NCBI RefSeq assembly: GCF_002196705.1
Contig: NZ_NADJ01000040.1
Location: forward strand, 124,001 to 188,000
Origin: Desulfosporosinus sp. FKB
GTDB lineage: Bacteria; Bacillota; Desulfitobacteriia; Desulfitobacteriales; Desulfitobacteriaceae
Reading direction: 5' to 3'
Length of the DNA: 64,000 nucleotides
The first letter of the stretch is position 1. Every line of letters begins with the position of its first letter. The notes beneath the pieces are model-generated. The model did no database searches and was not told the origin of the DNA. It saw only the letters and a list, made by a program, of their open reading frames with translations. Positions 35,380-39,612 of the stretch are shown piece after piece. The translations under genes were made by a program, and so were the position numbers.

Positions 35380-36957
35380 TCACAGCAAAATCTTCTGTTC
35401 GCAAAAATCCCCTGTTAAAGGGAGTTCAGCAATACGATCAACAAAACCCTCACCAAACAGTATAACAAAGTACAAAGGATTCAGGATCCGCTCCTGTCTC
35501 CCTTTATTAGGGGTAATTCCATCCTCGAGCACCCTCAAACCCTCGAGAACTGCACTATGGTTCTTGCGCTGAGCCTGCCAGAGTTTTTTTCTTAAGTATT
35601 CTATTTGGAGATTGACTTTCATTTCATTCCGAATTAACCAATCATGGACGTTAGCATGAATATCCTCAAGAGGCCCCAATTCTTTATAACCTTTTTCGAT
35701 CACAGACCTCAAGTGCTGTATACGTTGCTCAATATCCAGAGAATCCCGGTCGCGAATACAGCGTTCTTTATAACCATCTAACCCCTGATAAACATCAGTC
35801 AACGTCAATCCTGCTTTGCTAAGAGTTTTCTGCCAGGAAGGTGTCACGATAACTGCCGACAAACGGGGGAATAAGATGGGCATAACGAACCCAAAGGATG
35901 AAAACACGTCACCAAGCTGAGCCCAATAATTCAATTCTCCGGGACCGGGAACATAGGCTAAGGTGGGGAATAAAAATTCCTGAACAATTGGCCGAGTAAC
36001 AACATTGGGAGAAAACGTTTCAGGGTTTTTCCTTAACAACGCGGGCAAAAGGTCATCATCCAAGATTTTGTCTTGGCCCCTTAAATAAAAACCGTGACCC
36101 TGATTTAAAATCGCCCGGCGTTCAGGATTGGCCAGGAATAAGTTCACTTCGCCTCCCAGTGGCTGAATCTGGGCTGAAAAGCCAAGTTTTGTCCAAGCCT
36201 CAGTTCGCCGGAACAGAGCCTCCCGAACATCACCATGTAGTTTAAGGATTTGTTCATACATTGGAGCCGCCAGACATTTGAATTCCGGCAGCAAAGGATC
36301 AAACAAGATCAGGCCCCATTTTTTGAGCAGCCACTGTAGGGTTAAGGCAAACCATTGGGCAAGATTTTCTGCTTGATTAAGAAATCGCCGGCAATCCCGG
36401 AGCACTGAGGCTCTAAATTCAACATCCGGCAGCTGCAAAAGTTGCTGCTCAATAGCTTCCCAGGCAGGAACAGGCAGAATTCCTACTGATTTTCCTTCTC
36501 CGTCACCCGGAAGACTGCAGGAAAAAGGCTTCCCCTTATAATTTAGAAAGTAGGTTTTATGTATTTCTATCCAGTCATGATCCTCACTGGCAATCCAAAA
36601 TACCGGTACAACAGGCCGCCTAAGCCTTTCCCTTTGTTCCTCAGCAAGACGAATAATCGTCATAGCCTTATATAAGGTATACAAAGGTCCGGTAAAAATC
36701 CCCGCTTGTTGGCCGGTAATAACGACTAAGGTTTCATTACGCCTCAGCTCTTCAATCATTTGCAGTGTTTTCCTGTTTGCCCCTAAGAATTGGTGATAGG
36801 CTTTTAAAGAATCAACAAGTTTTTCTCGAGGATAATTCCTCGTATCTAAATACCTTGCTCGCTGTTCAAAACTTTTTTGAAGCTGAGGATTGCCGCTGGG
36901 GAAAAAAAAAGCTACTTGTTCAAAACAAGTAGCCAAGGCTTGCATCGGATCTCTCAT
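35380..36957 (-). CDS. bshC: BshC, bacillithiol cysteine-adding enzyme
   Basis: BshC is thought to add cysteine to GlcN-malate, finishing bacillithiol. The 525-residue product has family marks: VVITGQQAGIFTGPLYTLYK near residue 80, PVFWIASEDHDWIEI near residue 130, and EFLFPTLAYVPGPGELNYWAQLG around residue 320. A C-terminal coiled coil follows. These match BshC strongly. It lies 43 bases past selD and is probably co-transcribed with it from the promoter at 38132. bshA is at 21330; the deacetylase bshB is not in the window. Confidence 0.93.
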   Translation of the reverse strand: MRDPMQALATCFEQVAFFFPSGNPQLQKSFEQRARYLDTRNYPREKLVDSLKAYHQFLGANRKTLQMIEELRRNETLVVITGQQAGIFTGPLYTLYKAMTIIRLAEEQRERLRRPVVPVFWIASEDHDWIEIHKTYFLNYKGKPFSCSLPGDGEGKSVGILPVPAWEAIEQQLLQLPDVEFRASVLRDCRRFLNQAENLAQWFALTLQWLLKKWGLILFDPLLPEFKCLAAPMYEQILKLHGDVREALFRRTEAWTKLGFSAQIQPLGGEVNLFLANPERRAILNQGHGFYLRGQDKILDDDLLPALLRKNPETFSPNVVTRPIVQEFLFPTLAYVPGPGELNYWAQLGDVFSSFGFVMPILFPRLSAVIVTPSWQKTLSKAGLTLTDVYQGLDGYKERCIRDRDSLDIEQRIQHLRSVIEKGYKELGPLEDIHANVHDWLIRNEMKVNLQIEYLRKKLWQAQRKNHSAVLEGLRVLEDGITPNKGRQERILNPLYFVILFGEGFVDRIAELPLTGDFCEQKILL

Positions 36958-37000: not shown

Positions 37001-38074
37001 TCATGGGTGCAGGGAAATCGCAATTCTTCCGGGCTGACCACTGCAGACTCGTCCGATCACTGCAGCTGCCGGCGTCTGAGCTAAAGTCAGCTGTCTTAAC
37101 AAAGGTTCCAGACGATCTTGGGAAACCGCAATTAGAAGTCCACCTGAAGTTATGGCATCACAGAGCACAACCTGCAGCTCCTCGGATACATCGGAAGTAA
37201 ACTCTATCCAGCCTTCAAGGTGACGCTGATTGGCTCTTGTTCCTCCGGGAATTGCCTGTTGCTCTATGCATTGCCAAACACTCTCTAAAACCGGGACATC
37301 TTTAGCATATACTTCAGCACTTAAACCGCTTGCCGAAAGCATCTCATGTAAATGTCCTAACAATCCGAAACCTGTAATATCCGTGACCGCGTGAACACCT
37401 GCTTCAACTGCAGCTTCAGCAGCTCCTTTGTTCAGAGCAGCCATGACCTGAATAACTTCTTGTTCCGCCTTTGCAGAAACAATACCACGCTTTATTCCAG
37501 TCGTAATAATTCCTACGCCAAGAGGTTTGGTAAGGACTAAGTAATCGCCAGCCTCAGCTTTAGCATTGGAAAGAACGTTATCAGGATGAACAACTCCAGT
37601 GACGGAAAGTCCATATTTCGGCTCAGAATCGTCAATGGAATGTCCTCCGACCAAAACCGCCCCCGACTCCCGGATTTTGTCACTGCCGCCCTGAAGAATT
37701 TGGGCTAATACTTCCATTTTTAATTTACTAATGGGAAACGAGACTAAGTTCATCGCCGTCAAGGGTTTGGCCCCCATGGCATAAATGTCACTTAAAGCAT
37801 TGGCCGCAGCAATTTGTCCAAAAGCATAGGGATCATCCACCACGGGAGTAAAGAAATCGACACTCTGCACAAGAGCCTGTTCATCGTTGATACGATATAC
37901 TCCAGCGTCGTCAGAAGTATCCAGGCCTACAATCAAATTGGCATCTTCTTGATTTGGAGGTAAACAACACAAAACTTGTGCCAGGTCCCCAGGACCTATC
38001 TTGCATCCTCAGCCTGCTTTTGTTGAGAACTGGGTCAAGCGGATTTTATCTTGACTATTGAGATCAAGTTCCAT
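37001..38074 (-). CDS. selD: SelD, selenide water dikinase; selenocysteine-containing
   Basis: SelD makes selenophosphate from selenide and ATP for selenocysteine synthesis. The frame after a TTG at 37972 is open for 323 residues, but homology continues upstream across an in-frame TGA at 38009-38011, from an ATG at 38074. The joined sequence reads FSTKAGUGCKIGPGDLAQVL, with U at residue 22, exactly where SelD carries its catalytic Cys or Sec. Full length is 357 residues. Later marks are VGLDTSDDAGVY, DIYAMGAKPLTAMNL, GGHSIDDSEPKYGLSVTG and DITGFGLLGHLHEM. A good promoter lies at 38132-38159, and a hairpin starts 11 bases after the UGA. Confidence 0.95.
37983..37997 (-). promoter_or_regulatory. 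Candidate bSECIS hairpin of selD
   Basis: On the minus strand AGGTCC-TGG-GGACCT forms a perfect six-pair stem starting 11 bases downstream of the in-frame UGA, where bacterial SECIS elements bind SelB. The loop is only three bases, smaller than the E. coli fdhF type, but Firmicute SECIS elements vary. Confidence 0.6.
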
Positions 38075-38131
38075 TCTAGTCACCCCAAAAATTCAGTATA
38101 CGTTATAACTATGCATCACGTTGCAATTATA

Positions 38132-38159
38132 ATTATAGCCTTATTACTCTCAACGTCAA
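38132..38159 (-). promoter_or_regulatory. selD (-bshC) promoter
   Basis: On the minus strand TTGACG (38159-38154) and TATAAT (38137-38132) are separated by 16 bases, about 58 bases before the true ATG of selD. It implies transcription independent of selA, and supports the upstream selD start since it lies above it. Confidence 0.78.
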
Positions 38160-38199: not shown

Positions 38200-39612
38200 C
38201 TATTTCCAATCATTGAGGCGTTGCGCTATATCCTCAATGTCACCGTCAAGCAAAGTTCGCACATCGAAAAGTACCCAATCCTTCTGGATGCGGGTTAGAA
38301 TCGCTGCAGGACCCAAACGCAGGAACTTTTCCAGTTCGTTAACACTTCCTTGCTTAGGACGTACAGAGCAAACCCATGTTGGGAGATTTACTGTAGGCCA
38401 TGCCCCGCCTCCTACTTGCGATACATCCTCTTGGATTACCACAGAAATAGTCTTATTCAGTTCCAAAACAGATTTCAGCTCCTCTGCCTTGGCTTTCAAG
38501 TCCTGGGAAGAATAGGAAAGCATTCTCCAAACAGGGATTTCCCCGCCCTCTCCATTTAAGTACATTCGGAGCGTTCCTTCTAAGGCAGCTAACGTCAACT
38601 TATCAATTCTCAGAGCTCTCGTCAATTGATTCGTTTTCAGGCGATCAATAAAACGTCGTTTGCCGACGATAATCCCGGCCTGCGGGCCACCTAACAATTT
38701 ATCACCGCTGAAAGTGACCAGGTCCAGCCCAGCCTTTACTGTTTGCTGAACCGTTGGTTCAGGAGGGAAACCCAAACTTGTCCCATCAAAAAAACTCCCG
38801 CTTCCTAAATCCTCCATAACAGGAATACCCCGTTTTTCTCCAAGCTCAACCAACTCTGCTCCAGCAACGGCATGAGTAAAGCCTTCCAGTCGATAATTAC
38901 TGGTATGAACCTTCAAGATAAGGGCTGTTTCCGAGGAAATCGCATCTTCGTAATCTCTGTACCAGGTCTTATTTGTACTTCCCACCTCAACGAGTTTTGC
39001 CCCTCCGGCTTTTAAAACTTCAGGTATTCGAAAGGATCCTCCGACTTCAACTAATTCGCCGCGGGAAACAATAACTTCTTTGCCCAAGGCAAACGTATTC
39101 ATCATCAGCAGTACAGCTGCAGCATTATTATTGACTACCATAGCCGCTTCTGCACCGGTAAGTTCACAAAGGAGCTGCTCGACAAGAGAATAGCGTGAGC
39201 CCCGTTCTCCAGTCTCAATATTCAATTCCAGATTACTATATCGTTCAGCTTGAGCAGCCACGAAGCGGGCAATTTCCGGAGCAAGAAGTGCTCGGCCGCA
39301 ATTTGTATGTAAGACAACGCCAGTGGCGTTAATCACGCGGCGCAAATTTGTTTCAGGATTAGCCAAGGCTTGAAACAGTTCGTCCAGCAGCCACGGCCAA
39401 AGCTCCGCTTCAACATCCTCACCCCAATCCGATGTATTTCTGTAGACATTTTCCCGCGCTTTTTGTAAAAGCTGTCGAACGCAATGTTTTATCCGGGGCA
39501 AGCTTCTCTTATTCGTCAAGAAGGGACCGAATTCCGCCTCTGCTTCCAGACGAGCCAGCACTTCATGAACTGCAGGAAGTGCTCTTAAACGCCGTTGTTT
39601 ATCTTCCTCCAT
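38200..39612 (-). CDS. selA: SelA, L-seryl-tRNA(Sec) selenium transferase
   Basis: SelA is a PLP enzyme that converts seryl-tRNA(Sec) to selenocysteyl-tRNA(Sec) using selenophosphate from SelD. The 470-residue product has INATGVVLHTNCGRALL, RYSNLELNIETGERGSRYS, AAMVVNNNAAAVLLMMN, and the PLP-lysine region TFSGDKLLGGPQAGIIVGK. AAGGAG lies ten bases before the ATG. SelD, its supplier, lies downstream with its own promoter. SelB and tRNA(Sec) are not in the window. Confidence 0.95.
   Translation of the reverse strand: MEEDKQRRLRALPAVHEVLARLEAEAEFGPFLTNKRSLPRIKHCVRQLLQKARENVYRNTSDWGEDVEAELWPWLLDELFQALANPETNLRRVINATGVVLHTNCGRALLAPEIARFVAAQAERYSNLELNIETGERGSRYSLVEQLLCELTGAEAAMVVNNNAAAVLLMMNTFALGKEVIVSRGELVEVGGSFRIPEVLKAGGAKLVEVGSTNKTWYRDYEDAISSETALILKVHTSNYRLEGFTHAVAGAELVELGEKRGIPVMEDLGSGSFFDGTSLGFPPEPTVQQTVKAGLDLVTFSGDKLLGGPQAGIIVGKRRFIDRLKTNQLTRALRIDKLTLAALEGTLRMYLNGEGGEIPVWRMLSYSSQDLKAKAEELKSVLELNKTISVVIQEDVSQVGGGAWPTVNLPTWVCSVRPKQGSVNELEKFLRLGPAAILTRIQKDWVLFDVRTLLDGDIEDIAQRLNDWK

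Follow-up and report, generated by a model that had tools for sequence, protein, structure and literature searches.

How an in-frame UGA codon near the start of selD is read, and which part of the mRNA directs its reading, is the question raised by this locus of Desulfosporosinus sp. FKB. The locus lies in the window analyzed here, a stretch of 64,000 nucleotides. That SelD can be a selenoprotein is long known and ordinary by itself: among bacterial selenoproteins, SelD and FdhA are the most widespread (PMC1794560), and Sec-encoding genes make up 19% of the prokaryotic SelDs found in a reference set (PMC4561486). The published bSECIS model comprises a loop of 3–9 nt located 16–37 nt from the UGA on a stem of 4–16 pairs, and the loop motif has G in one of the first two places, often followed by G or U (PMC13188914). 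An earlier reading of this DNA, made from the sequence alone, had proposed that selD is read through its UGA and that a perfect short hairpin follows the codon. We compared the gene with its relatives and found that two hairpins follow the UGA in tandem, and we propose that the second of them is probably the site bound by SelB.

The selD gene and its surroundings

The selD gene (37001–38074, reverse strand, as are selA, the hairpins and the upstream signals described below) almost certainly encodes a selenocysteine-containing selenophosphate synthetase of 357 residues, judging from a profile match and comparison with relatives. The ATG (38074–38072) is in frame with the TGA (38011–38009), and the stop codon lies at 37003–37001. 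Translation through the UGA is predicted to give MELDLNSQDKIRLTQFSTKAG-U-GCKIGPGDLAQVLCC..., in which Sec is residue 22 and is surrounded by KAG-U-GCKIGPGDLAQVL; both the frame and the product given by the sequence-only reading were exact. Against the equivalog profile TIGR00476, the protein scores 414 bits (cut-off 125), and the match extends over the whole protein and runs unbroken across the UGA.

For comparison, SelDs from genomes of the order, the phylum and the public genomes were pooled, which gave 239 distinct relatives. The UGA of the window sits in the Sec/Cys column of their alignment, where 185 have TGA and 54 have TGC or TGT, in keeping with the earlier statement that SelD carries Cys or Sec at this residue. 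Because of this distribution, we read the UGA (38009–38011) as Sec. The SelD of the solved structure 3u0o has Cys at the same position. The closest public relative found is Desulfosporosinus acididurans, whose SelD is 97% identical, and a TGA-containing SelD occurs in most of the 73 genomes of the order. A sequencing error as the source of the TGA was ruled out, as the same TGA is present in scores of other assemblies.

The genome possesses selA, selB and tRNA-Sec. The last two, which the sequence-only reading had asked to be confirmed, are located away from selD: SelB (378 bits) is full length (TIGR00475, residues 7–630) and is encoded on another contig, with tRNA-Sec (anticodon UCA) about 1 kb from its gene. 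selA, coding for L-seryl-tRNA(Sec) selenium transferase (38200–39612; TIGR00474, 571 bits), is directly upstream of selD. Elsewhere in the genome, three genes for formate dehydrogenase (L184, L186 and L189) have an in-frame TGA and a SECIS-like hairpin, and a fourth (L185), near the Cys-type SelD described below, has Cys instead of TGA.

A ribosome-binding sequence, GGGGTGA (38080–38086), can be read in front of the ATG. The gap between selA and selD contains two overlapping sigma-70-like promoter matches (TTGACG/TTGAGA, TATAAT; 38126–38159), located at 38159–38132 and 38153–38126 and each matching the pattern at 11 of 12 positions; this gap is little changed in a close relative (L048). A good promoter had been claimed upstream of the longer start, and the matches are indeed there, but the promoter is only plausible because the pattern scan found 6 sites where 3.7 were expected. 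The gene downstream of selD is bshC (bacillithiol synthesis; 35380–36957 of the window), both in this genome and in almost every locus from the genus, and the gene order selA–selD–bshC is stable among these loci. An Rfam search of the window gave no match.

Two selected hairpins downstream of the UGA

The hairpin that the sequence-only reading had placed 11 bases past the UGA is real, but it does not stand alone. This hairpin, H1, has the structure AGGUCC-UGG-GGACCU and spans +12 to +26 after the UGA (37997–37983). Directly 3' is a second conserved hairpin, H2, with the structure GGCACAA-GUU-UUGUGUU, which spans +27 to +43 (37966–37982); its GUU loop is at 37975–37973, and R-G-U occupies +33 to +35. 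A SECIS-type structure, for which that reading had asked, is present.

Both hairpins were compared with a null model of synonymous-codon shuffles, made with each gene's own codon usage. H1 was found in 164 of the 185 Sec-SelDs, and its stem is far above the null; among the SelDs that also bear H2, selection on the H1 stem is just as strong, its score averaging 12.7 against 5.0 in the null. Complete H2 occurs in 102 of the 185 Sec-SelDs, whereas the null gave a mean of 11.9 (sd 3.2, maximum 20 in 200 shuffles), and in none of the 54 Cys-SelDs. The H2 codons are A-Q-V-L-x, in which the wobble base of Ala is paired to the first base of x, so that x is UGC (Cys) after GCA, CGC (Arg) after GCG and AGC (Ser) after GCU. 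The codon null and the absence of H2 from Cys-SelDs rule out that H2 is a by-product of these codons. When all stems between −30 and +105 were scanned, pairs belonging to H1 and H2 filled the first six places.

H2 is further characterized by compensatory changes. In 46 diverse members, six of its seven pairs have changed on both sides, and its covariation score is 0.417, compared with 0.175 after shuffling and at most 0.151 when the structure is slid; these members were picked for having H2, which inflates the percentage paired and leaves the compensatory changes unaffected. RNAalifold, run without a given structure, also draws H2. As judged by these comparisons of coding sequences, both stems are shown to be under selection. 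A three-way junction, formed by a lower stem closing H1 and H2 together, was considered and rejected: the sequences after the UGA and after H2 have no consistent pairing, and the stem scan ranks no such stem.

Two groups of SelDs depart from this pattern. Two Cys-SelDs of Cohnella (L127 and L128) retain H1 with GGC in its loop, apparently left over from the SECIS of a Sec-containing ancestor. TGA-containing SelDs of Planctomycetota (L131, L134, L137, L138, L143, L144, L145 and L149) lack both H1 and H2 at the corresponding positions, and their SECIS must be built otherwise, e.g., from GGACCU-GGG-AGGUCC-like stems slightly further 3'.

Which hairpin carries the recognition motif

In the window, the bSECIS model accommodates H1 (UGG loop at +19, with 17 nt between the UGA and the loop) as well as H2 (GUU loop, with 33 nt between). 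Since both loops fit the motif, the window by itself does not decide between them, and the case for H2 is built on relatives. Compensatory stem change and absence from Cys homologues, by which a bSECIS is tested, were both found for H2.

The main alternative, implied by the sequence-only reading, is that H1 is the sole SECIS bound by SelB and that H2 slows the ribosome, prevents misfolding of the mRNA or regulates selD. This reading agrees with the classical distance of H1 from the UGA, its presence in most Sec-SelDs and the fit of its loop in the window. However, the distribution of the loop motifs among relatives makes it unlikely, though still worth serious consideration. Where H2 is missing, H1 keeps the motif: it was found in 67 of 71 such SelDs, mostly at +18, and 42 of 43 members of a strict set of them use CCG for Pro. 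Where H2 is present, just 13 of 93 SelDs have the motif in H1 and 80 are without it, common H1 loops being UGC, UCA, UUC and CAA, and yet the H2 loop starts with GU in every case (102/102). The protein sequence does not force this GU, because only 31 of 73 SelDs without H2 and 40 of 54 Cys-SelDs have GU at the corresponding position.

The same relationship was seen on a phylogenetic tree of SelD, constructed with FastTree from an alignment with the hairpin columns left out. H2 changes at least 18 times on this tree. Among 16 branch-disjoint contrasts between the H1 motif and H2, chosen greedily, 10 were as predicted, none was against and six showed no difference (sign test, 0.002); restricting the tree to well-supported branches left eight contrasts (p ~0.06). 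The loops of the formate dehydrogenase SECISs of this genome, GGUCU, GGUCU and AAGUUU, are at +19, and the H2 tip of the window, CAAGUUUUG, resembles the third. Taking out H1 moves the H2 loops from +34 to between +15 and +23, a scattered distribution that is near, and not exactly at, +19.

Both kinds of SelD coexist in one Desulfosporosinus genome (G010), which has three TGA-containing SelDs (L027, L071 and L096) of the types KAGUGCK, CAGUAAK and GSGUACK. Two of the three have H2 and no H1 motif, and the other lacks H2 and has GGA in H1. This genome yielded a single selB match above the threshold, and the same SelB may therefore read both kinds. Another genome (G016) has two selB matches over the cut-off (L303 and L304), in one of which the profile match is limited to the first two thirds; a second SelB might act on a separate set of SECISs.

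Proposed mechanism

We infer that SelB binds H2 in the H2-bearing class and that H1 is a conserved intervening hairpin. Translation of selD would start at the ATG at 38074, and when the UGA enters the A site, SelB with Sec-tRNA(Sec), tethered to the mRNA just downstream, would insert Sec. The tether would be the tandem element, H1 followed directly by H2, and H2, whose R-G-U loop is like those of the organism's own FdhA SECISs, would be the likely SelB site. H1 would be conserved for its stem, whatever its loop, and may act as a spacer: with H1 folded away, the H2 loop would come near +19, where ordinary SECISs lie. Where H2 is missing, the H1 loop holds the motif. The selenophosphate made by SelD would feed SelA, encoded next door. 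Taken as a whole, with a Sec-containing SelD, a tandem H1–H2 tether and H2 as the SelB site, this explanation appears to us the most probable one, if by no means assured.

A second alternative is a switch, in which H2 has to compete with a long stem that contains H1 and takes up the 3' arm of H2; recoding would then vary with the position of the ribosome or with the supply of SelB and selenium. The 54-nt window RNA, folded in isolation, does adopt such a stem, which excludes H2, at −15.5 kcal/mol compared with −12.9 kcal/mol, and the synthesis of SelD requires SelD's own product. However, the 5' strand of this stem would lie within the ribosome, the stem is present in few relatives, and both the stem scan and RNAalifold favor H2; we thus regard a switch as improbable. 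The reading of the UGA as a true stop, with the gene either broken or starting at TTG 37972, is all but excluded by the comparison: mechanical ORF calling with table 11 does begin there, giving a false short ORF (37001–37972) without Sec22, just as the sequence-only reading had warned that an automated start would lose the catalytic residue, but the same TGA is present in 185 distinct relatives, the hairpins occur only in TGA forms, the peptide is conserved on both sides of the UGA and the Sec machinery is complete.

More generally, the selD mRNAs of a large group of bacterial genes may carry a two-hairpin SECIS, in which a proximal spacer stem sets a distal SelB-binding hairpin at the appropriate effective distance; evolution would have repeatedly shifted the recognition loop from one hairpin to the other, also between paralogues of a single cell. 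We give this generalization an even chance. If true, a hairpin that separates the recognition loop from the UGA would help explain the wide range of 16–37 nt in the bSECIS model and why the SECISs of SelDs look unlike one another, and selenoprotein gene finding would be improved. The paralogues would also be a natural set for testing what distances are tolerated by SelB and the ribosome. The finding on the protein is routine, and the tandem hairpin is the part that deserves attention.

A second, Cys-type SelD

The genome also encodes a Cys-type SelD (SGGCGAKIGPGEL; L018:1399–2421, G000 C4:101574–102479), whose gene has neither H1 nor H2. Its neighbors are yedF, a short ORF and two genes of the cysteine desulfurase family that are related to SclA. 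The short ORF had no NCBIfam match; it resembles a DUF3343 protein. Two or three SelDs are often present in genomes of the order, up to three of them with TGA, and a pair like the present one occurs in many of these genomes. The idea that a Cys-SelD is an obligatory starter for the production of Sec-SelD was discarded, as the sole listed SelD over the cut-off is of the TGA type in three nearly complete genomes (G007, G050 and G051).

Comparison with known systems

In the literature searched, to which the key 2005 bSECISearch paper and the SelD supplement of PMC4561486 did not belong, we found no description of a tandem-hairpin SECIS. The published distance range admits H2, which may already have been taken for the SECIS of SelD in earlier work. 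As far as the search reached, the tandem hairpin appears to be new; its structure is well supported by comparison, and H2 is its putative binding site.

The protein itself does not differ from known Sec-containing SelDs (TIGR00476): the family and the Sec position are the same, and selA is adjacent. The difference lies in the mRNA, which has two selected hairpins past the UGA. The pair of selD genes is similar to that of Photobacterium profundum, which has a Sec-SelD by the sel genes and a Cys-SelD elsewhere and was called the single prokaryote with two (PMC1273633, 2005); here too, a Sec-SelD lies beside a sel gene and a Cys-SelD is found elsewhere in the same genome, but the latter is accompanied by yedF and an SclA-like desulfurase rather than ybbB. 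With respect to the bSECIS model, H2 fits, but a second selected hairpin stands between it and the UGA, and the loop motif of SelDs is found in either hairpin and rarely in both. The H2 tip resembles that of E. coli fdhF, CAGGUCUG, and the organism's own FdhA SECISs likewise have their loops at +19 as in fdhF. The selD element nevertheless departs from the single-hairpin type of fdhF, in which G-G-U or R-G-U is located at +19 to +21, in having two selected hairpins and R-G-U at +33 to +35.
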